The notes beneath the pieces are model-generated. The model was given only the letters and a program-made list of their open reading frames with translations. It searched no databases and was not told the DNA's origin. Both the position numbers and the translations under genes were made by a program. Shown in pieces: positions 22,563-39,891 of a stretch of DNA of 64,000 nt. The stretch is from Parasegetibacter sp. NRK P23 (GTDB lineage Bacteria > Bacteroidota > Bacteroidia > Chitinophagales > Chitinophagaceae): assembly GCF_023721715.1 (NCBI RefSeq), contig NZ_JAMDLG010000001.1, positions 623,889-687,888 on the forward strand, in the 5' to 3' direction. How positions within the stretch are numbered: position 1 is the stretch's first letter; every line of letters starts with the position of its first letter.

Positions 22563-23999
22563 TTATCGCAACCAAAGCGGCCCCACTTCCGCTGGAGAAA
22601 GCAGCATAAATTTAGCGCCGGATCTTTCACTCAATACCAAGGACAGCCAATCAGCACCCGTGACTGATAGATCCGGCACATATTTTTCAGCTAAAGAAGT
22701 ATCCCCGGAAACAATGGACTCCAGCTTAGCGCTGCCCATCTTCCATCGTTTTGCTTTCACCAGTAAAAAACCTTCGGGCAGCATGGCTTTAGCATACCCC
22801 TGAACTAAGTTATCTGCGCAATCCAGTTCAGACGGATGTTCCTTTTCTTCATACAACACACCGCTAACACCCTTTTCGTTTACAAAAATATTCTCCAGGA
22901 TACTGACCCCTTCCGGCGCAGCCGTGGCTTCCTTTCTGGTATGCGCACCTACCCGGATACAGGGCGCATCACAATCCACGAAGATATTACTGCGCAACAC
23001 CGCGTTTTTCACCTGAAAATACCCGTTCAAAACACTGTTTTCCACGCCGTTTACAAACGTTACAGGAGCGCGAAAAACCTGGTGCGGCGCACCGTGTAAA
23101 TCTTTGAAGAAATTATTCACCGCAACATGGTCCTCTCCTATAAACCGTATGCCGTAAGAAAGTTTCTTTTGCCCGCCGTCAAAATAGTTTCCATCTGCCA
23201 GACAGGCATTCCCGTGCCGGAGGGTTAGTCCGCCATCGTTGTTGAAAAATGTATTGTACAGGTAACTGTTCCGGCAACTTTTATTGGAGATGATCTCTAT
23301 TTCGCCATCGCAATCTTCAAACCTGTTCAGCGCCACCACGCAATGCGCAGCGGTGAATGAGGCTTCACTATCCCCGATGCGGATGGTTTCAAGCCCGTTA
23401 TCGTGATGACCTGCATTTCCTCTTCCTAAAAAATAATTCCCGGCAATGGTATGGTATGCCGGTTCACCCTGATTCAACCATACAGTAACGGTTGCGCCCC
23501 GGTTGGTCTTGTTTTTCAACAAGCAATTTTCAAGTGTGTTGTGATCACCGTATAAAGAGACCCATTTGTTTTCCGTTTCCGCTGCCGGCAAACTGTTGTA
23601 AGCGTCGATCACACAATTGCTAACGGTGGAATAAAACGCATATTCCTTCCCGTTTTTGAATGCCACCACCGAAGCGTTTGACGGAGAAGCGGATCCGTTC
23701 CTCCAGGTAAAATCTTTCACCAGCAGATACCTGCCCGAAAGACTAAGTGTGGAACCTCCTTCAAAAAAAACTTCTCCCGGTGTTTCAGCGGCAAATACAA
23801 TGGGCTGTGTAGCTGTCCCCTTGGTGTTGTGCAGTTTAATAATAGCGTTTTTATACACGCCGTTACGGAGAAAAACACGGTCACCAGCAATCGCATTGTT
23901 AAAGATCACCTGCGCCTCCTGCGGAGAAGAAGCCAGGTAATCTTTTGCGGAAAGCACGCAGGGAAGGAAAAGCAATAGTATTAAGCTGAATATACGCAT
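22563..23999 (-). CDS. Polysaccharide lyase family 6, alginate lyase
   Basis: A 478-residue secreted beta-helix enzyme, the last gene of the alginate operon. Signal peptide ends near residue 18 (VLSA). Active-site features align with chondroitinase B and PL6 alginate lyases: the calcium-site glutamates in GLETIR (Glu204) and GEIEI (Glu233, Glu235), the catalytic base Lys240 in ISNKS and the acid Arg261 in LRHG. The Lys-to-Arg spacing is 21, as in chondroitinase B. It is a single-domain PL6, unlike the two-domain enzyme at 29588. The start at 23999 begins the signal peptide; the reading frame extends upstream without it. Confidence 0.92.
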   Translation of the reverse strand: MRIFSLILLLFLPCVLSAKDYLASSPQEAQVIFNNAIAGDRVFLRNGVYKNAIIKLHNTKGTATQPIVFAAETPGEVFFEGGSTLSLSGRYLLVKDFTWRNGSASPSNASVVAFKNGKEYAFYSTVSNCVIDAYNSLPAAETENKWVSLYGDHNTLENCLLKNKTNRGATVTVWLNQGEPAYHTIAGNYFLGRGNAGHHDNGLETIRIGDSEASFTAAHCVVALNRFEDCDGEIEIISNKSCRNSYLYNTFFNNDGGLTLRHGNACLADGNYFDGGQKKLSYGIRFIGEDHVAVNNFFKDLHGAPHQVFRAPVTFVNGVENSVLNGYFQVKNAVLRSNIFVDCDAPCIRVGAHTRKEATAAPEGVSILENIFVNEKGVSGVLYEEKEHPSELDCADNLVQGYAKAMLPEGFLLVKAKRWKMGSAKLESIVSGDTSLAEKYVPDLSVTGADWLSLVLSERSGAKFMLLSPAEVGPLWLR

Positions 24000-24051: not shown

Positions 24052-24804
24052 TTATGAAAAATAGGTTCCGCCGTTGATGTCAATATTTGTACCCGTAATG
24101 AACGAGCTCTCCTCTCCCGCGAGGTATGCCACCAGGTCGGCCACTTCTTCTGCCTTGCCTTCCCTGCGCAACGGTGTTGCACCAGCAACATTTGTGCGCA
24201 CCTGCGGGTTGGTAAAGGTATCGTGAAAAGTAGTGGCGATCATTCCCGGGTCCACCGCGTTTACACGGATACCCTTCGGCCCTAATTCTTTCGCCATCGC
24301 ACGGGTAAAAGTCGCCACGGCGCCTTTCGCGGTAGCGTAAGCCGAAGCGCCGAATCCGCCGCCATCACGACCGGCCTGTGAAGAAAAGTTGATGATGGCA
24401 CCGCCTTCGGGCATATAAGGCACCACTCCTTTTGTGGTCATAAATACTGATTTTACATTCAAACTCATGACGAAGTCCCAAAATTCTTCGTCCATATCGG
24501 TAATCAGTTTCCGGGCCACCAACCCACCGGCTACGTTCACCAGAATATGAATACTTGTCCCAAATGCGGACCGGGTTTGCTCAACCAGTTGCTCCACGTC
24601 ACGCACATTGCTCATATCACCTTTTACAGCGATGGCGGCTCCGCCAGCCGACTGAATTGCCTTTACCGTTTCCTCCGCACCTGCGGCGCTGCTCAGGTAA
24701 TTCACCACCACCTTCGCGCCTTCAGCGGCCAGTTTCAGGGAAACGGCCCTGCCAATGTCTCTTGCGCCACCGGTTACAATGGCCACTTTTCCTTTCAGTT
24801 TCAT
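24052..24804 (-). CDS. SDR oxidoreductase, probable DEH reductase
   Basis: A 250-residue short-chain dehydrogenase. It has the cofactor motif TGGARDIG (11-18), NVAG (about 90-93), the catalytic Ser in NFSSQAG (141-142) and YATAK (Tyr156, Lys160), and the C-terminal FITGTNIDINGG. In flavobacterial alginate operons an SDR at this position reduces 4-deoxy-L-erythro-5-hexoseulose uronate to 2-keto-3-deoxygluconate; the neighbours (PL6, PL17, KdgF, MFS) make that role likely. The start at 24804 is preferred to 24837. It lies 67 bases after the MFS gene and 52 before the last PL6 gene. Confidence 0.87.
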   Translation of the reverse strand: MKLKGKVAIVTGGARDIGRAVSLKLAAEGAKVVVNYLSSAAGAEETVKAIQSAGGAAIAVKGDMSNVRDVEQLVEQTRSAFGTSIHILVNVAGGLVARKLITDMDEEFWDFVMSLNVKSVFMTTKGVVPYMPEGGAIINFSSQAGRDGGGFGASAYATAKGAVATFTRAMAKELGPKGIRVNAVDPGMIATTFHDTFTNPQVRTNVAGATPLRREGKAEEVADLVAYLAGEESSFITGTNIDINGGTYFS

Positions 24805-24871: not shown

Positions 24872-26185
24872 TTATAAACTTTTATTTCGTTTACTGATAT
24901 ACGTGATACACAACCATGCTACGGGCACCATCAGGGCACCCATCACAAAAAAGGAGGTATAGCTGGTACGGGTAATCACGGGCACGATCCAGGTGGTCAC
25001 AAGTGTACCCAGAACCGCGGCCGTTCCGCCCATTCCGGCTACCGCGCCTACATTTTTCCCATCGAAATAATCAGAGGGCAGTGTCTGGAGGTTATTGATC
25101 AGGAACTGGAACCCGAACAAAGTTGCGCTGATCAATGCGATTGCCGCGGAAGGATTACTCCGCATTTCTTCCATATTTACGGCGATGCCCACGAGGGAAA
25201 ACAACATGATCACAGCTCCTATGGTGATGGCGGCTTTCCTGGCCTTTGCAGCGGGAACGCCTTTTCTGATCCTGCGCGATGAATAGAAGCCGCCCATCAA
25301 ACCACCAATGGCGGCAAACAGATAGGGTACCCAGGCAAACGCACCGATCTGTTTCATATCGAACTGGTATTGTTCTTTCAGAAACGTGGGCAACCAGGTC
25401 ACGAACAACCACCAGACCGGATCAATAAAGAACCGGGCCGAAATTATACCCCAGCAATCGCGGTTCGCCAGAAGCTCCTTCAGGGATAAAACACGAACCG
25501 GATGGGTGTTATCCGCAACTGCTTCACCGTTATTTTCTCCTTTACCTGATATATACTGCCGCTCCTCCGGTGTGATCCAGGGATGTTTATCGGGTGTGGA
25601 TTTATTGATAAGCAACCAAGGGATGATCCATACAAAACCAAGTATGGCGATGAGCAGAAAGGTGGTTTTCCAGCCAAAGGCAATGAACAGGCCGGCAATT
25701 ACCGGTGCTGCCACCACTGAACCAAGAGAGGCGCCTGCACCGAAAATACCCTGCGCAATCGCCCTTTCTTTGGGCGGAAACCATTCCGCGTTGCTTTTGG
25801 TGGCGCCGGGCCAGTTGCCCGCCTCGCTGATACCGAGGAGGAACCGGAATATATTGAACTGCATGATGGAACGGGCCGCGGCATGCAGCGCGATGGAGAG
25901 GCTCCAGCCGATGATGCTCACGGTCATACCAAGCCGCGTACCAATGGCATCCATCATTTTACCCGTTACCGTTTGCCCGATGGCATAAGCGATCATAAAA
26001 AAGGTGGTGATCAGGGCGAGCGCGTTCTTACTGTCTGCTTCAGCTATGCCAAAATCCTTGTAGATATAAGGCCACATGAAGTTAATGGCACCTCTGTCAA
26101 TGTAATTGATCACGGTCGCTAATCCGATCAGGGTGATGATGTACCACCGCAGTCCTTTTACTTTTCTCTCCTGCTTTAGTTCCAT
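24872..26185 (-). CDS. MFS transporter, hexuronate (ACS) family
   Basis: A 437-residue inner-membrane carrier with about 12 transmembrane helices. NYIDRGAINFMWPYI in the first helix and GISEAGNWPGATKSNAEWFPPKERA after the fourth are signatures of the anion:cation symporter group that includes ExuT and GudP. In this operon it would bring unsaturated monouronates released by the lyases into the cytoplasm, like the MFS carrier of marine Bacteroidota alginate operons. The ATG at 26185 is used; the frame has a TTG two codons upstream. The gap to the esterase gene is 15 bases. Confidence 0.92.
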   Translation of the reverse strand: MELKQERKVKGLRWYIITLIGLATVINYIDRGAINFMWPYIYKDFGIAEADSKNALALITTFFMIAYAIGQTVTGKMMDAIGTRLGMTVSIIGWSLSIALHAAARSIMQFNIFRFLLGISEAGNWPGATKSNAEWFPPKERAIAQGIFGAGASLGSVVAAPVIAGLFIAFGWKTTFLLIAILGFVWIIPWLLINKSTPDKHPWITPEERQYISGKGENNGEAVADNTHPVRVLSLKELLANRDCWGIISARFFIDPVWWLFVTWLPTFLKEQYQFDMKQIGAFAWVPYLFAAIGGLMGGFYSSRRIRKGVPAAKARKAAITIGAVIMLFSLVGIAVNMEEMRSNPSAAIALISATLFGFQFLINNLQTLPSDYFDGKNVGAVAGMGGTAAVLGTLVTTWIVPVITRTSYTSFFVMGALMVPVAWLCITYISKRNKSL

Positions 26186-26200
26186 GTGCAAATGATTCGT

Positions 26201-27091
26201 TTACTTGGCGATCCTCAGTGCTTTGATAAAGGCCATGATCTTTTTATTGAGTGCGGAATTTTCTTCAGCGGGAAATTTTCCATGCTGCCCGTTTTTCACG
26301 GTAACGAACTCCGTTTTTACACCGGCTTCCACCAGTTTTTTATGCAGATCAACCGACTGCTGATAAGGCACAACAGGATCGGCATCGCCGTGCACGATGA
26401 ATACCGGCGGACTGTTTTTGCTGACATAATTAATGGGTGAAACCGACGTGGCGAACTGCTGATCGGCGGCTTTATCGCCTAACCAACGACCCGCTGATTT
26501 GCTGGAAACCGGGCCATGGCCCCAGTCCCATACATCAGTGATCCCGTACTTATCAATGATGGCGGCTACCTTAATATCCTCCTTTCCCGGGCAATTCCCA
26601 TCAAAACGACGGTCGTTACCCAACAATCCGGCCATCAAAGCAAGGTGACCACCCGCACTTCCGCCCATCACCACTATTTTATTTACATCAATATTCAGCG
26701 CTTTAGCGTTCTTTATGAGGTAGATGAGGGCGCAACGCGCATCTTCCACCGCTGCCGGAGCCGTGGCTTCCGGTGTGAGCCGGTAGGAAATATTCGCTAC
26801 GGCAAAACCCATTTTAAAGAATGTACTGAAACCCGTCTGCGACTGGCGTTCCCCATGGTTCCAGCCACCTCCGTGGATATTGATCACCACCGGCGAAGCG
26901 CCATTGGCTGCGGGAGGAAGATAGATATCCATCGCTTTCTCCCAGCCGCTTCCATTTGTATATACGACCTCCATTTTTGAGGTATATCCATCAGGAAGCG
27001 CCACAGGTTTGTATTTGGCAGAATCCTGGGCCGAAAGCGTCCCACAAAAAAGCAGTACGGAAAACAGGGCAACAAGGGTACTTTGTTTCAT
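26201..27091 (-). CDS. Secreted alpha/beta hydrolase, possible carbohydrate esterase
   Basis: A 296-residue secreted hydrolase; signal peptide ends GTLSAQ (about residue 22). The oxyanion-hole motif HGGGW (73-77), nucleophile Ser145 in GGSAGG, acid Asp238 in HGDADPVVP and His270 in GQHGK form a complete catalytic set of the BD-FAE/acetyl-esterase type. It sits inside the alginate operon, 18 bases after kdgF. Bacterial alginates from Pseudomonas and Azotobacter are O-acetylated, so removal of acetyl groups is a reasonable role; this is inference from context. Confidence 0.85.
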   Translation of the reverse strand: MKQSTLVALFSVLLFCGTLSAQDSAKYKPVALPDGYTSKMEVVYTNGSGWEKAMDIYLPPAANGASPVVINIHGGGWNHGERQSQTGFSTFFKMGFAVANISYRLTPEATAPAAVEDARCALIYLIKNAKALNIDVNKIVVMGGSAGGHLALMAGLLGNDRRFDGNCPGKEDIKVAAIIDKYGITDVWDWGHGPVSSKSAGRWLGDKAADQQFATSVSPINYVSKNSPPVFIVHGDADPVVPYQQSVDLHKKLVEAGVKTEFVTVKNGQHGKFPAEENSALNKKIMAFIKALRIAK

Positions 27092-27450: not shown

Positions 27451-29577
27451 CTATTTTATTGAAATGAAAGATGTTTTGTTGTTGTACTGAATGGTTACCG
27501 TGTATTTTTCTTTTTTGTAGAAGAAGGAAAACACGGTCTCCTCCGGTGTTTTTTTCTCCACAGCAATTTTGGAAACACCTGGTTTTGCCCCAGTGATAGA
27601 TTCGGCCACCGGATTCGTTTTGCCATGTGGTTCCGTGAGCTGGATGAACAGTTGGTTACCGATGCCTTTCTTTGAAATGATGAATCCCTTTTCGTTCCGG
27701 ATGTTAAAATCCGGATCATTCGCGCCTGCAGTAACGAGTTTTACTGTAGTAGCCGTATCAGAGAGAAAACTGGTGGTATAGAATTTCTTATCCTGCAGAA
27801 AGGTGAACACACCGTTTGCCGCACCGGGTTTACCGGTAGCGTTCAACCAGATGTGCTGATAGCCATGATCCTTCCCCAAAGGATGTAACGCATTGGTATG
27901 GGTATTTAACGGGAAGGAAGTATAGGTAACATGCCCCTGGTACCAGAACGGCAGGTCGTAGGAATGTGTGCCGGAGGCATTCGCCAGGAACACATCTATC
28001 ACCAGCGGTCCCGCTGCGCCTTCCGGGGTAAAAAGCACGAGTGTGCGGGTCATTTCCACCCCTTTGTACGCGTTTTTTTCCCGGGCACTCACGACCTGAA
28101 AACGCTCATTCGCTTCAAAGAACAACAACTCCGGCGCGGCCGCTTCGGCTTTTTTCAGTTTCCCTTCAAAATGAGATGTTTCGTCCACCACCAATGTATT
28201 GTGCGCGATGGATTGCTTCGCCCACGTATTGTTTTCGGTGGTGTACCTGCCGCCGCTTTTGGTTTCTATATTGAGGAACCGGGCTGCGCCATAGTCGCTG
28301 AATACTTCTGTATTGTTATCGTACAACAACATGTTCAGCCGGTCGAAATGCCCATGCCCCATTCCCTGCGAGGCGGCTTCAAACACCACACAGGTCTGGT
28401 CCTGTTGTTTGCCGGACCTTAAAATACCGAGTCCGCCTTCCGTACCTTGGGCCCCGTCGCTGATCCATACGGGCCGGTATTCGAAGGGTACCGTTTTTCC
28501 TTCCGCGATGGCCTTCGCCACCTCTAAACCGGCATCACTGATGAGCACGCGTCCCTGTTGGGCAGCGATGTCCAGCAGATGGTCACCCGCATTCATATCG
28601 GCGTAGGCAATATCCACGGCATACACCAGCTCTTCCGTTTCATAAGTTTTATCTTTCATGGCATCGTTCAGCGGAAAGAATACTTTGTTGGTGTAGGTAC
28701 ATTGCAGCGATACATCTACCGCTTTCTTCAGCAACCCGTTCCGGTAATCGAATATTTTCTGACCGGGACGGTATTGGTGGATGGCTTTGGCGAAAAGCAC
28801 AAAGGGCAACAAGGCGTAACGCTGGTAATAGGGACCTTCGGAATAATAGCCATCCGGTGAAAAGAGCTGATCCAGTTGCGCGAGGAAACCGGCTTTCCCA
28901 TCTTTAGAGCTTCCTTTCAGCGCCATTTCCACCCATTCGGAGCGATTGCATACCAAACCCGCCATGCCCACTGCAGCCACGCTCCAGGTGCCGTGGTTGT
29001 GTATCTTGTTAAAGATTGCGCCGTTCACTACGGCAAGTTCATTCACCACGGGTTCGAACAAATCTGTTTCAATCTTTTTACGTTCTTCTTTCGATAGAAA
29101 ATCATAGACACAATCGTACCCCTGGATGGTATAGACCATCCACACGCAATCGTTCAGATTTTGCCAGAACATCTTTCCACCGGGATCTTCCTTCCGCTTG
29201 GGATGACGGGGCCATTGATTATAAACCGCGGCGTATTGCAACAACACATCGCGTACATACTGCGCGTATTTTTTCTCTCCCGAAACCTGGTAAACGATAC
29301 CACAGGCCAGCATGTCCTGGTAATTGCGTTTGTGCTGTTCATGCGTGGCACCACCGCCATCATCCACAGGAGCCGAAACCATGGGCTGACGGGCTACAGC
29401 TTTTTCAGCCGACTTCAAGATCGTTTTATAGGAAGAAGCCATTACAGGATAACGTTCTATTCCTTTGCGTAATTCACCAATCTTCTTTTTGGTCAACATG
29501 ATGGAAGGGTGTTCCTGTGCGAAAACTACCATATTTACGAGGGTAAAAACACCCAGCCAGATTATTTTCTTCATCAT
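27451..29577 (-). CDS. Polysaccharide lyase family 17, oligo-alginate lyase
   Basis: A 708-residue exported exolytic lyase that releases unsaturated monouronate from alginate oligomers. After a signal peptide (about 1-20) comes an alpha/alpha-toroid with the catalytic region NKIHNHGTW (Asn194, His195) and SEGPYYQRYA (Tyr250/251), then a heparinase II/III-type beta-sandwich starting near GMGHGHFDRLNMLLY. These match PL17 such as Alg17c. The ATG at 29577 begins the signal peptide and has an AAAGGA-like site upstream; the frame is open to 29607, overlapping the previous PL6 gene. Confidence 0.94.
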   Translation of the reverse strand: MMKKIIWLGVFTLVNMVVFAQEHPSIMLTKKKIGELRKGIERYPVMASSYKTILKSAEKAVARQPMVSAPVDDGGGATHEQHKRNYQDMLACGIVYQVSGEKKYAQYVRDVLLQYAAVYNQWPRHPKRKEDPGGKMFWQNLNDCVWMVYTIQGYDCVYDFLSKEERKKIETDLFEPVVNELAVVNGAIFNKIHNHGTWSVAAVGMAGLVCNRSEWVEMALKGSSKDGKAGFLAQLDQLFSPDGYYSEGPYYQRYALLPFVLFAKAIHQYRPGQKIFDYRNGLLKKAVDVSLQCTYTNKVFFPLNDAMKDKTYETEELVYAVDIAYADMNAGDHLLDIAAQQGRVLISDAGLEVAKAIAEGKTVPFEYRPVWISDGAQGTEGGLGILRSGKQQDQTCVVFEAASQGMGHGHFDRLNMLLYDNNTEVFSDYGAARFLNIETKSGGRYTTENNTWAKQSIAHNTLVVDETSHFEGKLKKAEAAAPELLFFEANERFQVVSAREKNAYKGVEMTRTLVLFTPEGAAGPLVIDVFLANASGTHSYDLPFWYQGHVTYTSFPLNTHTNALHPLGKDHGYQHIWLNATGKPGAANGVFTFLQDKKFYTTSFLSDTATTVKLVTAGANDPDFNIRNEKGFIISKKGIGNQLFIQLTEPHGKTNPVAESITGAKPGVSKIAVEKKTPEETVFSFFYKKEKYTVTIQYNNKTSFISIK

Positions 29578-29587
29578 ACATCCTTTT

Positions 29588-31936
29588 TTAAAACACCGGT
29601 TTTTCATTCCAATACAATGCCGCCCCTATGGGTTCGCCTCCTGCAGAAGACAATTCAGCCGCATTTTTCAGCCTGAAATCCGCTGCTGAGGCGTTCCTGA
29701 ACATGGGCTCGACATAGTATGATTTGGTCGTATTCAACCTGCCGAAAAAAGCGCTCAGTTTCCCGCTCCGGAAGAAACCGCAATGGTCCACCTTCAGCTT
29801 ATCCCACGCCATTTCCTCGAACCAGATCGTCCTGCCGCCCGAACCACTTTGTGTAAAAATGGAATTGGTCACCTGCGCCTGCTGCACACCATGCAGTTTC
29901 ACCACACAACCCTGCATCCGGTTATCGACATTCAGAAAAGTACAATGATCGATCTGCACTTCAGGACCAGTGGTACTCTCATCGTTGCCACCCCGGTACA
30001 CATTGATTACCGTGCTCTGCATGTTCTGAAATACACAGTTCCTTACGGCGAGGTAAGCAATGTTGTAAATACCTTTATCCTCTTTTTCAGCGGAGAAATC
30101 TATGCTCCCGCCCGCGTTATTGTAGAAAAGACAATTTTGTATGGTAACCGAATCAGCATAGGTGGATTTCCATCCCCTGACAGCGGCAGCGCCCCACTCG
30201 TTGAACCCGGTAAAACCACACTCATCCAGTTTCAGTTTATAGGGCCGGTTCATGGGACGATCGCCTGTTGAGATGCCTGCAGAAACGGCCCCAAAGTTGG
30301 CTTCGGAGGCATTAAATATGATTCCTGCAACAGTAAGGTCAACACCATTGTCCAATAGGATGAACGCCGGCAGAGCCTTTGCATTCACATTTACCAGCAC
30401 CGCTTTCTCCCCAGGTGTTTTAACCCGCAGCGTAAGTGTTTTATTCACCAGCAAAGGTGATTCTATGGCATACTTTCCCGCCTCCAGTTCAATAATATCT
30501 CCATCGGTCGCTTTAGCCACAATAGCGGGAAGATTAAGGCTTTCCGCTGCGCGCACAAAGTGAACGACAGGTTTCCTGACATTTTTTACCGTTGGAACAC
30601 GCCAGGATACGCCTGCATGCTTTTCATCCATCCAGCTTCTACGCTGCATGGACGCACCGTTTTTTACTACAGGAAGTGTGAGTTTTTTCCCGGCATAAAC
30701 AACTGTTGAAAACACCGGTTTTTTCGGTTGAAAACCATTTAAAGTATTCCTTACCTGCTCACCCATGAAACTATTGTTTCTGAAAAGAATACCACCATCT
30801 CTATTGGCATCTTCATACACCACTTCATGGGTAGTTTGAATAAAATTATCGGTGAATGCAACACGTTCGGGCGCCTGTGTTCTTTCCGGATCCTTTCCGG
30901 CCCCGAACATGATCTCTTTGCAACCTGAAAATGTGTTGTGGTGGATCTTTACATCCGTTACCGGCGCGTACCTGTTGAGCGGAGAATTGGGTACACCGTT
31001 CAAGACGCTGAACGCAGCGTGAAAGCGCTCCCCTGCAAGGTCCAGGAAAAGATTATCGTAAATAAGATGCCCCGCGTTGATCACACGCACACCGCCCGTG
31101 AAGGGCTTCCCGTTCCCGATAAAGGTATTTCCCGCTACTGTATTTTCATTACCGTGCCGCAGCACCAGCCCGCCTTCACATTCAAAAAAAACATTCCCGG
31201 TAATTTCATTTTTACTACTCTTGATGGAAACGATTTCCACTTCTCCGCTGCACCTGGCAAATAAGTTATCCTTTATGCGTGTACGCGACTCCGTGAGACA
31301 ATACCTTGAAACCCCCACCCTGATGGTTTCTCCACCGTTTGACCCCAGCGGTGAGCGGCCCATAAAATGATTGCTGTCGATGCTGTGCCGGTTGTCCTGG
31401 CTCCGTTCATCGTTCAGGTTCACGATAAGTGTGGCCCCGCCATTGAACTTATCGCCGATGGAGCAATGGTCCATCCTGTTGTTCTTTCCCCAGAAAATGA
31501 TCCAGCTGTCGTTATCCGACCGGTCGGGTTTACTGAAATCATCTATGGTGGTCTGGGTGAGCCTGCAATATTTCGCGAGCTTTTCATCGTTCACCCTGAA
31601 TTCCACTACGGCGCCTTTTTTAGCGTATCCGTTGGTAAAATGCAATCCGGACACTTCAATGTGCGCACCGCCGAAGCGGAGGAAGGAATTACCGGTGAGC
31701 CGAACACCTCCCGGCGTTGCAGCCTTTACCACCAGTGGCTTGCCCGCCGCGCCGGATGTTTCCAGCACCAGCGGGGTATTTTTCCATTCGCCATTGGCCA
31801 GCACAATCGTGTCGCCGGGTTGTGCTTTTTTCAGCGCGGCTTTCAGTTCGGGCAGGTTTTGAACAGGCCAGGAAAGTGCAAGGGTTAACCTGGCGGCAGC
31901 CATACAAATGAGCAGGATCAAAAAATGTTTCAGCAT
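29588..31936 (-). CDS. Polysaccharide lyase family 6, two-domain alginate lyase
   Basis: A 782-residue secreted enzyme with two beta-helix domains, like AlyGC from Paraglaciecola. Signal peptide covers about 1-21. In the N-terminal helix the calcium glutamates are Glu203 (GGETIR) and Glu232/Glu234 (GEVEIVS), the base is Lys239 (SIKSS) and the acid is Arg260 (LVLRHG), each offset by 11 from chondroitinase B numbering. The C-terminal helix (about 400-782) lacks this set. It starts 4 bases after the GntR gene ends. The ATG at 31936 is chosen because the upstream extension lies inside that gene. Confidence 0.94.
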   Translation of the reverse strand: MLKHFLILLICMAAARLTLALSWPVQNLPELKAALKKAQPGDTIVLANGEWKNTPLVLETSGAAGKPLVVKAATPGGVRLTGNSFLRFGGAHIEVSGLHFTNGYAKKGAVVEFRVNDEKLAKYCRLTQTTIDDFSKPDRSDNDSWIIFWGKNNRMDHCSIGDKFNGGATLIVNLNDERSQDNRHSIDSNHFMGRSPLGSNGGETIRVGVSRYCLTESRTRIKDNLFARCSGEVEIVSIKSSKNEITGNVFFECEGGLVLRHGNENTVAGNTFIGNGKPFTGGVRVINAGHLIYDNLFLDLAGERFHAAFSVLNGVPNSPLNRYAPVTDVKIHHNTFSGCKEIMFGAGKDPERTQAPERVAFTDNFIQTTHEVVYEDANRDGGILFRNNSFMGEQVRNTLNGFQPKKPVFSTVVYAGKKLTLPVVKNGASMQRRSWMDEKHAGVSWRVPTVKNVRKPVVHFVRAAESLNLPAIVAKATDGDIIELEAGKYAIESPLLVNKTLTLRVKTPGEKAVLVNVNAKALPAFILLDNGVDLTVAGIIFNASEANFGAVSAGISTGDRPMNRPYKLKLDECGFTGFNEWGAAAVRGWKSTYADSVTIQNCLFYNNAGGSIDFSAEKEDKGIYNIAYLAVRNCVFQNMQSTVINVYRGGNDESTTGPEVQIDHCTFLNVDNRMQGCVVKLHGVQQAQVTNSIFTQSGSGGRTIWFEEMAWDKLKVDHCGFFRSGKLSAFFGRLNTTKSYYVEPMFRNASAADFRLKNAAELSSAGGEPIGAALYWNEKPVF

Positions 31937-31940
31937 ACTT

Positions 31941-32669
31941 CTATTTGTTGAGCAGCGATTCACTGCGGCTGATGCGCAAAATGTCATCGAGGTGCGCGGC
32001 CATAGCCAGTGCGGCAGCGTTTTCATCCTTATCGGCAATAGCCGTCAGTATTTCATGGTGTTCTTTCACGGCTGTAATGGAACGATCGGGACCGCACACC
32101 TTCTTCTCAATAATGTTCCGGATCAGATCGGGCAACAACAGCAGCAGCATCGACTCAAAGAAGGAGTTCTTGGTGGCGCTGGCTATTTTGAGGTGAATGA
32201 ACATGTCTTCCTGCACCCCGTCCAGGTTGTGCTTCATTTTGAGGTCGTAATCTGCCACGGCCGACTGCAACACTTTCAAATCCTCATCCGTTCTGCGCTG
32301 GGCGGCCAAACGGGCGGCGTTGATCTCCATATAATAGCGCGCTTCCACCATGGCCGCGAAATCATCTTTATTGAAATCAATGATATCGCTGAGGATACCA
32401 TCCAATACTTTGATGCTGTAGCCTGAAACATAGGTTCCGCTTTGCGGCGATGTTTTCAGCAGGCCGTAGAATTCCAGTTTCCGGATGGCGTCGCGCACAT
32501 AGCCTCTTCCCACGCAAAACCTTTCGGCCAGCACACGTTCCGCCGGTAGCCTGTCGCCGGGTTTCAACTGTCCGCTGGCAATGAGTTGCCGCAACTGGTG
32601 AATTATTTTATCCACCGGACTTTCCACTTCTATCGCTTTGATTCTTTGAATAATGGTTGACGATTCCAT
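31941..32669 (-). CDS. FCD-type GntR regulator of the alginate operon
   Basis: A 242-residue FadR-subfamily regulator. The winged helix (about 17-80) contains LKPGDRLPAERVLAERFCVGRGYVRDAIRKLE in segments typical of GntR; the FCD effector domain (about 95-230) has the histidines FIHL, KEHHEIL and AAHLDD expected for its metal and ligand pocket. Proteins of this type respond to sugar acids such as KDG. It is embedded in the operon between the glycan-binding lipoprotein and PL6. Two TGGT-TG-ACCA palindromes upstream of susC (39192-39223) are its likely operators, giving autoregulation. Start at 32669 has the normal N-terminus. Confidence 0.93.
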   Translation of the reverse strand: MESSTIIQRIKAIEVESPVDKIIHQLRQLIASGQLKPGDRLPAERVLAERFCVGRGYVRDAIRKLEFYGLLKTSPQSGTYVSGYSIKVLDGILSDIIDFNKDDFAAMVEARYYMEINAARLAAQRRTDEDLKVLQSAVADYDLKMKHNLDGVQEDMFIHLKIASATKNSFFESMLLLLLPDLIRNIIEKKVCGPDRSITAVKEHHEILTAIADKDENAAALAMAAHLDDILRISRSESLLNK

Positions 32670-32715: not shown

Positions 32716-34323
32716 CTAACGTTCCTTCAAAATATCGAGTACCACGCTGGATCGGCCCTGGTTGGGCGAAGTATACATATCCGTATCCTTCACGTGTACC
32801 AGTATGTTTTTCCCTTCAGGCGTTTTCATCCATACCAGGTAAGCATTGTCCGGGTGAAAAACATTCGACGCGGGCGTACTCACATTGTCGTATTTGGCCG
32901 TATTGGCGCTGGGCGCACTCACGCCGGAGAAGAAATCGTTCCCCAGGCTTTCGATACCTCCCGCATTGTACTTCGTATAGATGTTACTGCCATTGGAAAC
33001 GGAGGTCTGCAGCATCACACGCATCCGCACATCGCGTACCGTAGCCGGCGTCCAGCCAGTGGCGCCGCCGTTGCAACGATAATTACCACGGATACTCCCG
33101 GTATTGTTGGGATTATAAAAGGTAATAGCCGGCGCCGTGGTGGTATAGGCAACAAAATCAATCTTATCATCGTAAGTGGTATTGCCATTTACGTCACAAC
33201 TTCCGATGACGGGCCTGTTCACCTCACCGATAAAGAAGCTGCTGGAGGACGTTAACGGCGGATCGGCATTGGGCAACCCCTGCGCCATCATCGTCACGTT
33301 TTTCCAATGGTAATACGGCAGTATTTGCACCGGATTGTTGGCGGAACTGTTACTGTTATTGGCATCCATTGCTTCTATCCGGCATTCCGTAACATCGTCG
33401 GCAAAAGGAAAATCAGCAAGAGAGAACGTGTAATTGTATTCGTTGGGCGCTGAACCGGTAAGCGCATACGACACATCCCCCACCAGGGTTTCTCCGGAAG
33501 TTTTTACCACATAAGCTTTCAGCGCCACCAGTTCCCCGAAAGTCTTTACGGTACCGGAAACAATGGGTGTGCCATGCGGCAGGGCGGCCTTCAGGACCGG
33601 GTTCGAGAACGTAAGTACAGGGCGGAACGGAATACCCACGAACTGGATCAGCTTTTCCGACACCAAACCATATATATCTGTGGCGTGTACCCGCATTTGC
33701 CCTGCGCCTTCCTTATAGGTATACGGGTAATTGATGGTGTAATCTTTCGCACCGTTCACGGCGATGCTATCGATCAGCTCCATATTACCGGTGCTGTTGT
33801 CGGAGAAATACAGTTTCTGAATGCCGGTTTCAGAACTTAGTTTTCCGGTTATGGCCGTGGGTCCGGTTAAAGAAGGCGTAACCGTTTCGGGCAGTTCCGA
33901 AAACTGCGGTGCAGCCGGATTAAAATAAGTGACGGAGATGAATTTTTCGATGGAAGTGGTATTGTCCCTCACGAACAACACTTTCAGCCCTTTCACATTT
34001 TCGAATTTCACGCCGTTCCATACGGCAGGATCAAGGGAGAACGTGTAGTTGTTTCCAGAACCATCTTCCACGAAATCGGTTTGCAGGAGCGAATCGGTGG
34101 TATTGTTGCGTTGGAGGTAATAATAAACGGTGCGGATATTGAAGTTGGCCGCTACCGTTCCTTCCACTGTAGCCTCCGGCTGAAATCCTTTAATGGCTTC
34201 GTTATATATATATTCTGCTGTTTCCAGCGTGCCGTCGGCCATGAACTGGTCCTTCTTTTTGCAGGCCGCCAGTATAAGCAGGAAGGCGGCGAACAGTATA
34301 CTATTTTTATGGATGGCTCGCAT
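32716..34323 (-). CDS. Surface glycan-binding lipoprotein of the alginate locus (SGBP-like)
   Basis: A 535-residue lipoprotein with lipobox LAAC (Cys21). Several immunoglobulin-like strand-rich segments follow (one ending TGKLSSETGIQKLYFSD, another around SGTVKTFGELVALKAYVV), and a C-terminal domain of about 200 residues without a recognised family. It occupies the third place after susC and susD, where SusE/SusF or SGBP proteins with Ig-like spacers and a distal binding domain are found. No catalytic motif is visible. Alginate binding is inferred from position. Confidence 0.72.
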   Translation of the reverse strand: MRAIHKNSILFAAFLLILAACKKKDQFMADGTLETAEYIYNEAIKGFQPEATVEGTVAANFNIRTVYYYLQRNNTTDSLLQTDFVEDGSGNNYTFSLDPAVWNGVKFENVKGLKVLFVRDNTTSIEKFISVTYFNPAAPQFSELPETVTPSLTGPTAITGKLSSETGIQKLYFSDNSTGNMELIDSIAVNGAKDYTINYPYTYKEGAGQMRVHATDIYGLVSEKLIQFVGIPFRPVLTFSNPVLKAALPHGTPIVSGTVKTFGELVALKAYVVKTSGETLVGDVSYALTGSAPNEYNYTFSLADFPFADDVTECRIEAMDANNSNSSANNPVQILPYYHWKNVTMMAQGLPNADPPLTSSSSFFIGEVNRPVIGSCDVNGNTTYDDKIDFVAYTTTAPAITFYNPNNTGSIRGNYRCNGGATGWTPATVRDVRMRVMLQTSVSNGSNIYTKYNAGGIESLGNDFFSGVSAPSANTAKYDNVSTPASNVFHPDNAYLVWMKTPEGKNILVHVKDTDMYTSPNQGRSSVVLDILKER

Positions 34324-34340: not shown

Positions 34341-35912
34341 TTAATACCCGGGGTTCTGGGTGATTTCAATTTCATTGTTGGTATCCAGTTCCCGTTGCGG
34401 GATCGGAAGAAAAGGCCGGACAACGAGGTTTTCTTTCAACTGTTCCAGCGTAAGCGCGGGACGGAATCTTTTGTAATGTTCATCGTATTCCGCTTCATAA
34501 TATATACCCATCGCTTCTTCAAATTTCCCCATGCGTTGCAGGTCAAAGTAACGGTGGTTCTCGAATGCAAGTTCCAGTCTTCTTTCGTGCAACAGGCGAT
34601 CCGTAAAATTCTCTTCTGTAATGGCTTCCGCTCCGGTAGCGGGATACAGGTAGAATGCAGCGGAGAAGTTGCCCGTTCCGGGGTATTCGCCTGCCCCGGC
34701 CCGTTGCCTAATACGGTTGATGGCATTTACAGACGCTGTACTGAAACCTTCCGCTTCCGCTTGCATCAGCAATACATCTGAAAACCGGATCACGGGAAAA
34801 TCATTTTCGGCATCGTCTTTTATCATCACGGGAGAAATGAATTTCCGGCAGTAAGAAAGTGTATTGTACCGCGCGATGTTTGTCGCCTTTCTTGCATCGG
34901 CGAAGCCTGTATTCGGAACGATGTACCTTGATTCAAGGTGCAGTGTGGGATAATTCAATCCGGATCCGTTCCCGTTCACGATGGCGCTTCCACTATTCAA
35001 TGCGGCGAAGGAATTGGCCATAAAGTTACCCAATCCCAGTCCGCCCGATTTAAACCGGATGGCGAACAGAATTTCACGGTTCATTTCATTGCTGATGGAA
35101 AATACATCGGCATAACTGGTGAGCAGGTCGTGGCCGCTTCTTGCGATGATATCATTCAGCAGCGGGAGCGCATCGGCTTTACGGTTATTGGTAAGGTAGA
35201 CTTTAGCGAGCAATGCTTTAGCGGCCCAGATGGTGGCGCGTCCTCTGTCGGCTTCGGGCTGTTGTGAAAAGTTCCGGTCGGTAAGCCATTGCTGCGCCGC
35301 TTCCAGATCGGCCATCACCAGCGTGTAACATTCCTGTACGGAGGAGCGGTTGATCTGTTTCAACTGAAGCGGATCGGTTGGATCGGTGAGCAGAAAAACA
35401 CCATTGAACAAACGCGCCAGGTTGAAGTAGTGGTACGCGCGTATGAACAGCGCTTCGCCCGCCAGTTCTTTTCTCCTGGCCTCCTCCATCACCGCAGTGG
35501 GTTCTTTTCCAAATACCGTTTTCCCATTCGCATAAGTAACGCCGAGACTCCTCAACACGTAGTTCGCGCTGCGAATATTTTTATAGGTACTGAACCAGTA
35601 ATCGTACACTTTGGTGTGGGATGAGTTCTGCAGGAAAGTATTCAGGTCGTTCAGTTCAATATTGGGTACGGAAGTACTTCCGGGACTTCCCTGTTTGGAC
35701 ACATCGGATCGCAGTTCAGTGAGCATCCATTCCGTACGGAGCGGTTGCTGCAAACCGTTGTAGCATCCTGTAAGCGCCACCTGAACTTCTTCATAGTTGC
35801 GGTAGAAGTTCTCGACGGATACATTCGACTCAGGTTTCAGGTCGATGATCTTTGAGCAGGAAGCCATTGTTCCGGCCAGGAGAACGATTGTATAGAGATT
35901 TGATAATTTCAT
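34341..35912 (-). CDS. SusD-family lipoprotein of the alginate locus
   Basis: A 523-residue surface lipoprotein with lipobox MASC (Cys19). SusD features include NYEEVQVALTGCYNGL near the N-terminus, the TPR helices FIRAYHYFNLARLF and ATIWAAKALLAKVYL, and the C-terminal ENHRYFDLQRMG, ending EITQNPGY. Length is normal. It lies 19 bases after its susC and 17 before the SGBP-like gene. It should bind alginate oligosaccharides and close over the SusC barrel. Confidence 0.95.
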   Translation of the reverse strand: MKLSNLYTIVLLAGTMASCSKIIDLKPESNVSVENFYRNYEEVQVALTGCYNGLQQPLRTEWMLTELRSDVSKQGSPGSTSVPNIELNDLNTFLQNSSHTKVYDYWFSTYKNIRSANYVLRSLGVTYANGKTVFGKEPTAVMEEARRKELAGEALFIRAYHYFNLARLFNGVFLLTDPTDPLQLKQINRSSVQECYTLVMADLEAAQQWLTDRNFSQQPEADRGRATIWAAKALLAKVYLTNNRKADALPLLNDIIARSGHDLLTSYADVFSISNEMNREILFAIRFKSGGLGLGNFMANSFAALNSGSAIVNGNGSGLNYPTLHLESRYIVPNTGFADARKATNIARYNTLSYCRKFISPVMIKDDAENDFPVIRFSDVLLMQAEAEGFSTASVNAINRIRQRAGAGEYPGTGNFSAAFYLYPATGAEAITEENFTDRLLHERRLELAFENHRYFDLQRMGKFEEAMGIYYEAEYDEHYKRFRPALTLEQLKENLVVRPFLPIPQRELDTNNEIEITQNPGY

Positions 35913-35931: not shown

Positions 35932-38900
35932 TTAGAAATTAATGTCGATTCCCATTGTTACTGTTCTCCCGATAGGGAAGCCACCGCGCTGGTAGCCGTC
36001 TATTAACGGAGAAGCGTATGTGCCGGAAGTGGTGCGGGCTTCAGGGTTAACGCCGCGGTAATTTTTGCTCATGATGAAGAACAGGTTTTCGCCGGAAGCA
36101 TAAAGTCTTACGCCATTGATACCCATTTTTTTCGCGTAACGCGGCGACACGGAATACCCCAGGATCACACTTCTTAAAGCGGCGTAAGAACCGTCTTCAA
36201 TGATGTAGTCGGTGAGCATCCAATCGGCACCGTCTGCGGCATACGGGGTTTTTCCATCACCCGGATTGGCCGCACTCACCCAACGGTTTTCGCTGTTGTA
36301 GTTTTTATTGTACCATTTCGATTCGTTGTAATAAGCGTCTCCGTTTACAATATCCGCGCCCTGCACGCCTTGTATCACGAAAGTAAGGTCGAGCCCTTTG
36401 TACTTCAGTACATTGGTCATTCCCCAGGTGAAATCGGGAAAAGGTTTCCCGATAACGGTGCGGTCGTTTTCATCGATGCGGTTATCGCTGTTGATGTCTT
36501 TGAACTTCAATCCACCGGCCACGAAATACTTTGACAATGCGCTTTCCAATCCTTTGGCCTGTGCCTCCTGAATTTCCTGGTCTGAGGTCCATACACCATC
36601 GGTCTTGTATCCGAAGAACTGTACGGCAGGCCCGCCGGTGAACGCGGCGTATATCTCATTTCTTTCGCCGTAATTGAATTGATAGGCTTCCCCGCCCAGG
36701 TCCAGCAAGTTGTTCCTGTTGCCCGCGGCGTTGAACGAAGTGGTCCATTCAAAGTTTTTGTTCCTGATGTTGGTGGTCATCAGTTCGAGTTCCAACCCCT
36801 GATTACGCACTTTGCCGATGTTGTTCCAGAACTGGTTGGATCCGGAGAACGACATGGCTGCCTGTTTGAAGAGCAGGCGATCGGTTACGCCGTTGTAATA
36901 TTCCAGGCTCATGGTGAACCGGTTGTTGAGGATGCCCAGGTCGATACCAGCGTTAAACTGGTAAGTCCTTTCCCAGGTAAGCACATTGGGGAGCACATCA
37001 TTATTCGCGGCCAGGCCATTGTTGAGTGAGCCGGTTCCGCCGCCGAAGGAATAATTGGCCATGTTCAGCAGTTCCAGGTACGAAAAGGGCTCGATGCTGT
37101 TGTTGCCCGTAGCGCCGTAACTGGTCCGGAGTTTCAGGTTGCTGAGCCAGTCCGTTTTTGCGAGAAAGGGTTCATTGTTGATGCGCCATCCCGCGGAAAC
37201 CGCCGGGAACCAGCCATATTTCTGTCCTTCTGGGAAATAGCCGCTTCCATCGGTACGGATGCTGGCGGAGAAAAGGTATTTTCCTTTAAAATCGTAGGTG
37301 GCTCTTCCGAGGTAGGACAGCAAACCGATGGGATTCTTTAACGTGTAAGTATTGGCGAGATTGATGGATGAAGCCTGGTTCAGGGTTTTGATGTCATCGG
37401 TGGGCAAATTGAGTCCTTCGATCTGCGCGGTGGTGGTGTTTGTTCTTTGTGCCGTGAAACCCAGTAACGCGGAGAAATTATGGTCGCCCGCGCGTTTGCT
37501 GTAATTGAGTGTATTCTCCCAAAGCAGGTCTATCATGCGGCGGGTGTAATGTTCCCCTCTGTTCACCTGTCCATCGGTGCGGGAATTCTTCATGGCGAAA
37601 TATTCAGACTCTATATAGTTGAAATACACGCTACCGGAGGTTTTCAACACTAACCCCTTAGCGAGATCGACACTGATGTCGCCGCCGGTTTGCAAACGGT
37701 AGTTCCAACTGGTATTCGATTCACGGTCCGCAATAGACTTCGGGGTATTATTGCTGGAAGAAAAAGGGTTCACTTTTCCGGAAGTAATGGAGGGATCGAG
37801 GTTACTGTCCCAGAGTGTGCCGTCCGGCATAAAGCCGAGATACGCCAGATTGGCGAAATGCCGTGGCTGCGCCCAGTCGCCAGGCCTGATACCCGCCCAT
37901 TGGGCGTTCTGGTTCACGAATGCGGCGGTGGCAGGGGTATGAAAAACAGGGAGTCCGGAATAGAACCGGTAGTAATCGGTAAAGTTGGTAGCGGGCCTTG
38001 TGGTCCTTGAATAGGATGGGTTGAAATTGACCGCGAACCTGGTCTTTTTCCCGAGGTTCCCATCGATCTTGGTTCTGAAGTTAATACGGTTGAAGGCGTT
38101 GTGATCCATAATACCGTCGTCCTGCTGGTAGTTCCCCGAAACATAGTACCTGATTTCCTTTCCGCCTGAAACACCCAGTTGCACGTTGTAAATACCGGCG
38201 GGCCTTAAAGCTTCTTCCTGCCAGTTGGTGGCCTCGCCATTCAGCAGTGTTCTTTCTGCGAGATAGCGGGCTTTTTCCTGGGGTGTAACCAGGTTTTTAC
38301 GGTTGGCCGGAACAGTGGGATCATTCTCGCGGAGCGCGGCTTCCCGGTACAGTTTTTCGGTGTACTCACCGGTGGTCATGATGGGATGAAGTTTGTAAGC
38401 GTCCTTTATACCATAGTAAGCTTTCAAAGTATATTTCGGCTTATTCGATTTCCCGCTTTTTGTAGTGATCAGGATAACGCCGTTTGCACCGCGAGAACCA
38501 TAGATCGCAGAGGATGCGGCATCCTTCAATACTTCCACGGATTCCACATCGAAGGGGTTCACCATGGCGAGCCCGTCCACCATCGGGTGCCCATCTACCA
38601 CCACAAGCGGATCGGCATTAGCGGAGATGGAACTGAGTCCGCGCACCCTTACGCGTGGCGATACGCCGGTTTCGGAGCTGAGGTTCTGCACCGTTACGCC
38701 GGCCATTTTCCCGATCAGCATCCTGTCTAAGCTGGAGGCGGGAATCTCATCCAGGTTGTCATTCTTTAATTTGGTGATGGCGCCGGTGAGGTGTGATTTC
38801 TTCTGATCGCCGTACCCGATCACCACCACATCATCGAGTTGTGCGGCATCGGCTTCGAGGGCGATCGCGATTTTATCTTTCCCCTGTAATTCAATGATCC

Positions 38901-39147
38901 GGGCTTTGTAGCCCACAAGGGAAACCATAAGGCGGGCGGAATTCAGCGCCGGCACGGCAAGAGAAAATTCTCCCTTCTCATTGGTGGAAGTGCCGGTTTG
39001 GGTTTTCGCGCCCAGCAGGCTGATGGAAACTGCAGCCAGCCCTTCACCCGTTTTGGCGTCGGTAACCGTGCCCTTTACCGTTTTCTGCGCCATGGCCTCC
39101 AGGTGGAACAAAAGGCACAGGAAAAGCAGTGGTTTAAACCTGTTCAT
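35932..39147 (-). CDS. SusC-family TonB-dependent receptor of the alginate locus
   Basis: A 1071-residue outer-membrane importer and first gene of the eleven-gene operon. Signal peptide ends at AMAQ (about residue 20); the carboxypeptidase-like domain (KTVKGTVTDAKTGEGLAAV onward) is followed by the plug with SSAIYGSRGANGVILITT and a barrel to FPIGRTVTMGIDINF. By association with PL6 and PL17 lyases it should import alginate oligosaccharides. The GntR-type palindromes lie 45-76 bases upstream of its start codon. Confidence 0.95.
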   Translation of the reverse strand: MNRFKPLLFLCLLFHLEAMAQKTVKGTVTDAKTGEGLAAVSISLLGAKTQTGTSTNEKGEFSLAVPALNSARLMVSLVGYKARIIELQGKDKIAIALEADAAQLDDVVVIGYGDQKKSHLTGAITKLKNDNLDEIPASSLDRMLIGKMAGVTVQNLSSETGVSPRVRVRGLSSISANADPLVVVDGHPMVDGLAMVNPFDVESVEVLKDAASSAIYGSRGANGVILITTKSGKSNKPKYTLKAYYGIKDAYKLHPIMTTGEYTEKLYREAALRENDPTVPANRKNLVTPQEKARYLAERTLLNGEATNWQEEALRPAGIYNVQLGVSGGKEIRYYVSGNYQQDDGIMDHNAFNRINFRTKIDGNLGKKTRFAVNFNPSYSRTTRPATNFTDYYRFYSGLPVFHTPATAAFVNQNAQWAGIRPGDWAQPRHFANLAYLGFMPDGTLWDSNLDPSITSGKVNPFSSSNNTPKSIADRESNTSWNYRLQTGGDISVDLAKGLVLKTSGSVYFNYIESEYFAMKNSRTDGQVNRGEHYTRRMIDLLWENTLNYSKRAGDHNFSALLGFTAQRTNTTTAQIEGLNLPTDDIKTLNQASSINLANTYTLKNPIGLLSYLGRATYDFKGKYLFSASIRTDGSGYFPEGQKYGWFPAVSAGWRINNEPFLAKTDWLSNLKLRTSYGATGNNSIEPFSYLELLNMANYSFGGGTGSLNNGLAANNDVLPNVLTWERTYQFNAGIDLGILNNRFTMSLEYYNGVTDRLLFKQAAMSFSGSNQFWNNIGKVRNQGLELELMTTNIRNKNFEWTTSFNAAGNRNNLLDLGGEAYQFNYGERNEIYAAFTGGPAVQFFGYKTDGVWTSDQEIQEAQAKGLESALSKYFVAGGLKFKDINSDNRIDENDRTVIGKPFPDFTWGMTNVLKYKGLDLTFVIQGVQGADIVNGDAYYNESKWYNKNYNSENRWVSAANPGDGKTPYAADGADWMLTDYIIEDGSYAALRSVILGYSVSPRYAKKMGINGVRLYASGENLFFIMSKNYRGVNPEARTTSGTYASPLIDGYQRGGFPIGRTVTMGIDINF

Positions 39148-39176
39148 AAAGCAAGCAGTTTTCGTTGAAGTATTAG

Positions 39177-39223
39177 CAAATCGTTACCCAAAATTGGTTG
39201 ACCAATTATTTGGTTGACCAATT
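39177..39223 (-). promoter_or_regulatory. Alginate operon promoter with tandem GntR/FCD operators
   Basis: Two adjacent palindromes, AATTGGTTGACCAATT (39192-39207) and ATTTGGTTGACCAATT (39208-39223), carry the TGGT-N2-ACCA core recognised by FadR-subfamily GntR proteins such as FadR and ExuR/UxuR. They repeat every 16 bases. On the minus strand an ACGATTTG (39184-39177) is a weak -7 candidate; if used, the operators cover the promoter upstream part, which fits repression. The FCD regulator of this operon is the obvious binder. Confidence 0.8.
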
Positions 39224-39327
39224 TACGACTAAAATCCAAACCGCAAAGTTTTTTTAGCCCATTTTAAAAAAAACGGGTTTCCCTGCAATGAAACGGTTAT
39301 GGCGGGAGTCAATACCCTCAACCGACC

Positions 39328-39891
39328 ATGCACCAGACCGAACTTGTCAAAAACTGCATCAGGAATAACCGGAACGCGCAGGAAACACTTTACCGGCAAT
39401 ACGCGCCCACGATGCTGGGGGTGTGTTACAGGTATACTAAAAGTCTGGACGACGCAGAAGACATTCTCCAGGAAGGATTCATCAAAGTGTTCTCCCACCT
39501 GGACAAATACAAGGGGGATGGGGAACTGGGTGCGTGGATCAACCGTATCATGATCAATACCGCATTAAGTTACCTGCGGCGGCACAACAGGTACCGGAGC
39601 CAGATGCAGTTCAATGAAACAATATTGCATCCTCTAACCAATGAAACGGCCAACGCCAAACTGGATACCGAGGCGCTGATAGAACTGATCAGGAAACTAC
39701 CTACAGGTTACCAGACGGTTTTCAACCTTGTAGCCATGGAAGGATACAATCATATAGAAGTAGCAAAAATGCTGAGCATTAATGAGAATACCTGCCGCAG
39801 CCATTACAGCAGGGCCAGGGCGCAACTCGTAAAATGGATCAACGCGGAGCAACCGGCAGCAGCAAAACCCATTGCGGGCAATAAATTTTAA
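39328..39891 (+). CDS. ECF-type RNA polymerase sigma factor
   Basis: A 187-residue sigma-70 family protein. Region 2 covers about residues 20-90 (YAPTMLGVCYRYTKSLDDAE, then ILQEGFIKVFSHLDKY and GAWINRIMINTALSYLRR), region 4 about 122-172 (LPTGYQTVFNLVAMEGYNHIEVAKMLSINENTCRSHYSRAR in pieces). It starts 180 bases upstream-to-upstream from the alginate susC start and is divergent from it. It ends 4 bases before a membrane protein that may act as its partner. Confidence 0.94.
   Translation: MHQTELVKNCIRNNRNAQETLYRQYAPTMLGVCYRYTKSLDDAEDILQEGFIKVFSHLDKYKGDGELGAWINRIMINTALSYLRRHNRYRSQMQFNETILHPLTNETANAKLDTEALIELIRKLPTGYQTVFNLVAMEGYNHIEVAKMLSINENTCRSHYSRARAQLVKWINAEQPAAAKPIAGNKF

Follow-up and report, generated by a model that had tools for sequence, protein, structure and literature searches.

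Tandem palindromes before susC in a Parasegetibacter alginate locus as predicted operators of an FCD-GntR regulator, with a spacing that appears to go with regulator clade

Alginate genes of Zobellia galactanivorans are repressed by AusR, a GntR-family protein for which the available portions of two reports describe operators in one, two, or three copies and release by metabolic intermediates or oligosaccharides (PMC7874173, PMC8286568). In the FadR subfamily of GntR proteins, half-sites read TKGT/ACMA, the distance from GT to AC being 3 nt in FadR and ExuR and 2 nt in UxuR, and double sites and extra half-sites occur; none of the FadR-subfamily proteins surveyed in the available portion of that study is from Bacteroidetes (PMC4494728). 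NanR of E. coli, a member of this subfamily, is described in the accessible part of its report as three dimers bound to (GGTATA)3, cooperatively through a 32-residue N-terminal extension, with weaker binding when six extra nucleotides separate the repeats (PMC8012715). Here we compare these systems with a locus in a 64-kb stretch of DNA from Parasegetibacter sp. NRK P23, the whole of which we call the window. AusR (Dudek et al. 2020) is the closest known system, and the operator pair described below is of that known kind, in another family; a first-pass annotation of this DNA did not name it, listing FadR, ExuR, and UxuR as the known binders of the core.

The gene run from susC to the second PL6-type lyase is an alginate-utilisation locus by content, and is composed of the following genes:

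35932..39147, minus strand: susC-like TonB-dependent receptor, the operon's first gene (Pfam scan of window ORFs)
34341..35912, minus strand: susD-like (Pfam scan)
32716..34323, minus strand: lipoprotein-like ORF (by eye) with no Pfam match
31941..32669, minus strand: the fourth gene, an AusR-like FCD-GntR regulator; its listed ORF starts upstream at a TTG, 32708
29588..31936, minus strand: PL6-type lyase (Chondroitinas_B model); start by eye, listed ORF to 32038
27451..29574, minus strand: PL17-type oligoalginate lyase; start by eye, listed ORF to 29607
26201..27091, minus strand: BD-FAE esterase
24872..26185, minus strand: MFS transporter; best NCBIfam match a D-galactonate transporter, below its cut-off
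24052..24804, minus strand: SDR oxidoreductase; start by eye
22563..23999, minus strand: second PL6-type lyase; start by eye, listed ORF to 24191

The PL17-type lyase scores 741.6 bits against NF042990, below the cut-off of 1400, and the SDR oxidoreductase is, from gene context alone, probably a DEH reductase. Pfam scanning of 19 window ORFs revealed no KDG kinase and no aldolase. As with AusR, the window regulator is encoded inside an alginate locus (PL6, PL17, susC/D, MFS, SDR); unlike the AusR and Zobellia arrangement, its gene is the fourth, between the sus genes and the lyases.

Upstream of susC, two exact copies of the 12-bp core TTGGTTGACCAA lie 16 bp apart, at 39194-39205 and 39210-39221, as part of a 14-nt direct repeat (39194-39207 and 39210-39223) with the same 16-bp offset. 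The first-pass annotation had described two 16-bp palindromes here, 45-76 bases upstream of susC, and the sequence confirms both copies and their place, the span 39192-39223 lying 45-76 bp from the susC ATG (39147, minus strand). The copy at 39192-39207 is a full 16-bp palindrome (AATTGGT-TG-ACCAATT); in the copy at 39208-39223 (ATTTGGT-TG-ACCAATT), a single flank base breaks the symmetry. We designate the two cores as follows:

39210..39221, minus strand: predicted operator O1, which RNA polymerase would meet first; core TTGGT-NN-ACCAA (basis: motif at relatives' loci)
39194..39205, minus strand: predicted operator O2, with the same core as O1, 16 bp nearer susC (basis: sequence)

The centre of each operator, measured from GT to AC, is 2 nt. 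Among the binders proposed in the first-pass annotation, UxuR thus fits, having the same 2-nt centre, whereas FadR and ExuR have 3 nt in the available portion of the comparative study (PMC4494728). Both operators sit in the interval 39148-39327, which susC shares with a divergent ECF-sigma-like ORF (by eye) starting at 39328. The words AACGATT and CTTGC (or CTGCC) are present shortly before several susC and regulator starts, in the window at 39135-39175 on the minus strand and likewise in L039-L043, L045, L161, L171, and L177. We rejected AACGATT plus CTTGC as a general susC leader, each motif being present in just 2 of the 26 receptor genes checked (the genome has 103 receptor-domain matches, of which 30 were fetched and 26 had a start by a crude rule).

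The regulator belongs to the FCD (FadR) subfamily of GntR proteins and contains both domains, the GntR winged helix (PF00392, 6.3e-18) and FCD (PF07729, 4.1e-21). Its NCBIfam scores all lie below the respective cut-offs: 74.4 bits against 442 for UxuR, 77.5 against 396 for ExuR, 26.2 against 189 for FadR, and 114.5 against 260 for NanR. Residues D155, H159, H204, and H226 are invariant in all 95 aligned regulators, an Asp/His set that fits the metal/ligand site of an FCD domain. Like NanR, the window protein is of the FadR subfamily and is predicted to bind repeated sites as a row of dimers; unlike NanR, it faces a different repeat and has about 17 residues ahead of the conserved Pro18, with no 32-residue extension. 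Given these features and the comparisons below, we consider it very probable that the palindromes are tandem operators of the operon's own fourth-gene FCD-GntR protein, a predicted DNA-binding repressor of the AusR type.

Across the 4.83-Mb genome, the motif TTGGTNNACCAA is found at 4 exact places, against 7 for a reversed control pattern. Two of the four are the window pair; the remaining sites are both within coding sequence, one (L003) in a 517-aa ORF that resembles pyruvate kinase by eye and one (L004) in a 257-aa ORF. With up to one mismatch there are 120 sites, fewer than the 208 of the reversed control; this deficit perhaps reflects avoidance, perhaps base composition. The site closest to TTGGTTGACCAA among the 100 one-mismatch matches listed (L012) was discarded as a candidate, lying inside a leuB-like frame (by eye). 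Since the motif is not enriched genome-wide, what is unusual in the window is the exact, close, non-coding pair, and a wider regulon at consensus strength is not indicated. The lack of enrichment of the single motif would be expected were the palindromes chance products of an AT-rich leader, an explanation that we nevertheless regard as exceedingly unlikely, given that the exact motif occurs twice in the window against 0.08 expected, that none of 100 window shuffles contains two exact sites, and that the sites are conserved in relatives.

Regulator homologs are encoded in 18 of the 294 genomes of the family (Chitinophagaceae, as judged from Niastella soli, the closest relative with a name), the window's own included, and we fetched about 20 kb around the regulators of the 17 relatives (10 kb for one). 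The motif is present at the locus in all 17, exactly in 15 and with one mismatch in two (L047, L053). The first-pass annotation had named conservation in related alginate loci as a check on its reading and the fourth-gene FCD regulator as owner of the sites; the conservation is found at a tolerance of at most one mismatch, and the predicted ownership gains strong comparative-genomic support from it. Conservation is in part shared ancestry. Nine of the family relatives have regulators 60-76% identical to that of the window, and seven of these have tandem sites, in two to three copies spaced by 15 bp (five relatives) or 14 bp (two); a third copy in L038 lies 28 bp off. The remaining two of the nine (L041, L042) each have just one operator, so a tandem arrangement is not a requirement, and copy number in the window (two) and its relatives (one to three) resembles that described for AusR. 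The eight family relatives whose regulators are 39-45% identical have no operator pair within 60 bp. In four of them (L048, L050, L051, L052), two exact sites are separated by 118-138 bp and lie within or close to the divergent regulator-susC space. By eye, L048, L050, and L051 have an operator TTGG at the place of the -33 box and TAnnTTTA 8 nt on, a layout that may represent a different way of blocking the promoter in this sister group, whose regulators are about 40% identical.

Defining an exact pair by a start-to-start distance of 13-43 bp, we find 9 such places, distributed over 8 of the 294 family genomes. Each of these 8 genomes is one of the 18 regulator carriers, and the 276 genomes that lack the regulator have none (hypergeometric 3.5e-11, kinship not corrected). 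With 8 places in 7 genomes, the reversed control forms about as many pairs, and it is the exclusive link with the regulator that sets the true pairs apart. Four genera (g85, g71, g11, g52) contain members with both regulator and pair alongside members with neither. This association bears on whether the palindromes are real operators of another regulator, such as a second FCD protein, with the operon's own FCD protein acting elsewhere. The genome does encode two FCD genes, and the second FCD-GntR gene (L018 2200-2350, C1 about 1,840,000) is divergent from a susC gene, but the palindrome between them is a different one, TATGT-CAT-ACATA with a 3-nt centre (by eye), and the exact pairs track the alginate FCD regulator without exception across the 294 genomes; we therefore hold ownership by another regulator to be very unlikely. 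The second FCD gene and its susC possibly form a second FCD-controlled polysaccharide locus. Two regulator copies within one alginate locus are seen in L064 (9007-10708) and L117 (826-1554 and 10976-11494).

An unselected set of 395 genomes of the phylum, which partly overlaps the named-genome survey described next, has exact pairs in 6 genomes at 10 places, against 1 for the control, with spacings of 16 bp (the window), 15 bp (three), 27 bp (one), and 13 bp (five). Leaving the window aside, nine places remain; viewed in stretches of about 18-20 kb, eight of them are at loci with regulator, sus, lyase, or SDR genes. The ninth (L149) lies between gluconokinase-like and KDG-kinase-like genes (by eye), and its stretch matches 0 of 10 query genes. 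Named genomes were surveyed by regulator alignment, which gave 79 loci from the best 80 of 515 relatives. Combined with the 17 loci from the family and with 22 kb from the window, these make a set of 95 loci after removal of the duplicates L059 (the L045 locus in opposite orientation) and L124; near-identical relatives (L041/L042, L112/L118, L102/L113) were kept, so that counts are of loci and not of independent events. The 1,796,746 bases of these 95 loci contain 162 exact sites, as compared with 4 matches to the reversed control; an exact site is present in 81 loci and absent in 14.

The same half-sites, TTGGT/ACCAA, are found in three other Zobellia species (L097, L115, which is Zobellia uliginosa, and L117), each with an FCD homolog in its alginate locus. 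These homologs are 42-43% identical to the window regulator, and their operators are spaced by 13 bp, in contrast to the 16 bp of the window. We counted spacings between neighboring sites with at most one mismatch within 60 bp. In the clade of regulators that includes the three Zobellia species (47 loci, hereafter the 13-bp clade), all 60 spacings are 13 bp (51) or 26 bp (9). In the other 48 loci, 37 of 40 spacings are 14-16 bp (14 bp twice, 15 bp 25 times, 16 bp ten times), with 27, 28, and 58 bp once each, and 13 bp never occurs. The reversed control pattern has no pairs in the spacing listing. Expressed in helical turns, 13 bp is about 1.24 turns, in Zobellia and other Flavobacteriaceae, and 14-16 bp is about 1.3-1.5 turns, on the side of the split that holds the window, Niastella, Pedobacter, and Saprospiraceae. 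The first-pass remark that the two dimers in the window would sit on different faces of the helix agrees with the arithmetic, 16 bp being about 1.5 turns, and overlooks the spacings of the seven close family relatives with tandem sites, 15 bp in five and 14 bp in two, as well as the 13 bp of the Zobellia type.

Our phylogenetic analyses suggest that operator spacing goes with regulator clade and is explained by one change on the tree, an association that looks new. In a quick tree of 95 rows, the 38 loci labelled 13 and the 25 labelled 14-16 need one change; the other 32 of the 95 regulators have no close pair and so no spacing label. A more careful tree of 92 rows gives the split a support of 100/100, and one change suffices in 200 of 200 bootstrap trees, in an analysis for which the tree program warned that long deep branches meet. 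L059 and L124 are excluded from both trees, and the long branches L101, L053, and L089 from the 92-row tree as well. The window regulator and the Zobellia homologs fall on opposite sides of the 100/100 split in these trees, which contain neither an FCD outgroup nor the AusR of Z. galactanivorans. The split also tracks taxonomy as given by record titles, so descent and regulator surface are indistinguishable on this alone. By title or the start of the abstract, no article on operator spacing in alginate loci appears in the limited collection searched, and the available portions of PMC11381880, PMC12323373, PMC13390454, and PMC3878776 contain nothing on operator spacing; the original AusR work (Dudek et al. 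2020) may already include the 13-bp spacing.

Twelve positions distinguish the 13-bp clade (47 regulators) from the 14-16 bp loci (25 regulators) at a level of at least 80% by residue class. Among these is residue 33, which is in the DNA-binding domain directly before the conserved LxPGDxLP stretch and is Gly in 25 of 25 regulators of the 14-16 bp loci and Lys or Arg in 46 of 47 of the 13-bp clade, making it a candidate for a dimer-contact residue tied to spacing. We tentatively propose, as a possibility that falls short of probable, that neighboring repressor dimers read the operator spacing through their contacts and that this spacing switched once together with the repressor surface, for example at residue 33. 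Possible to a like degree, in our judgment, is that the dimers do not cooperate, that the second site only raises occupancy or blocks elongation, and that the spacing descends from an ancestral duplication. The single-operator loci L041 and L042, the variation from 14 to 16 bp outside the 13-bp clade, and the short region of about 17 residues before Pro18, as compared with the 32-residue extension that NanR needs for cooperativity according to the accessible part of its report (PMC8012715), are all consistent with such independent dimers. Set against them are three regularities: surveyed pairs closer than 26 bp are always spaced by 13-16 bp; in the 26-bp cases the two sites stay in phase across a sub-threshold middle site; and the 13-bp clade keeps 13 or 26 bp before susC, PL6, PL17, MFS, and regulator genes alike, which argues against one inherited promoter copy.

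Spacing might instead be set by the promoter, through how far the -7 box lies from the start point and early transcript, rather than by contacts between dimers. The main flavobacterial -7 box is TAnnTTTG at -12 to -5, with TAnnTTGY as a variant, as given in the available portion of a promoter study (PMC9723704). We overlaid this box on 101 unique arrays, each having an exact site that lies between 420 bp upstream of and 90 bp into a gene matched by one of the ten queries. Of the 35 tandem arrays in the 13-bp clade, 34 have an exact TAnnTTTG that merges with the first operator (shuffle mean 2.67, maximum 8), as do 17 of the 30 other tandem arrays (shuffle mean 1.70, maximum 6), the shuffles not being corrected for kinship; single sites have the junction in 4 of 12 and 1 of 24 cases, respectively. 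With the -7 box fused to an operator in many arrays, the first dimer would cover both the -7 box and the start point, and this junction appears to be new. Scanning 39100-39400 for sigma-70 promoters with an E. coli-type model, which does not cover Bacteroidota promoters, returned nothing. The candidate promoter elements of the window are as follows:

39218..39225, minus strand: candidate -7 box TAAATTGG, which overlaps O1 and is not an exact TAnnTTTG (basis: sequence; exact boxes of relatives)
39244..39247, minus strand: TTTG as candidate -33 element, placed 18 nt before the candidate -7 box (basis: sequence; a T-rich peak similarly placed in relatives)

O1 of the window is preceded by GTAAA, a near miss that stands outside the 17 exact cases among the 30 arrays, and TAAATTGG resembles the TAnnTTGY variant minus its final pyrimidine. 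If the TA of this box is at -12/-11, O1 would extend from about -8 to +4 and O2 from about +9 to +20. The frequent fusion of the first operator to the -7 box is in keeping with a spacing dictated by promoter geometry, and so is the window itself, where by eye the distance from the TA of the candidate box to O1 is shorter by one base and that from O1 to O2 longer by one, which leaves O2 at the same place relative to TA as in the 15-bp relatives with an exact box. However, the fused box is found in both clades, yet the spacing is 13 bp in one and 14-16 bp in the other, following the tree with one change, and an exact fused box is missing from 13 of the 30 arrays at the other loci; on balance we consider a promoter-set spacing somewhat unlikely.

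For the operators and the fourth-gene FCD-GntR regulator, which we regard as their predicted repressor, we infer binding, repression, a start point in the window, dimer cooperativity, and an inducer. Without alginate, one repressor dimer would occupy each site, O1 lying over the -7 region and the susC start point and O2 just downstream, and RNA polymerase would be excluded, keeping the operon, including the repressor's own gene, at a low level. When alginate is broken down, a uronic-acid product would bind the FCD domain and the dimers would be released. The first-pass annotation proposed KDG or DEH as this compound, whereas the available portions of the AusR reports mention metabolic intermediates or oligosaccharides (PMC7874173, PMC8286568). 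These comparisons give an alginate locus from beyond the marine flavobacteria of AusR its predicted regulator and operator, together with a likely way in which it is repressed. Promoters in which an operator runs into the -7 box may serve as controllable parts in Bacteroidota. With the same half-sites set at different gaps in two clades, spacing becomes a testable trait on which dimer contacts and promoter geometry can be set against each other, and, if the proposed reading by dimer contacts is true, these alginate loci would be a natural experiment in gearing a row of repressor dimers to the DNA helix.
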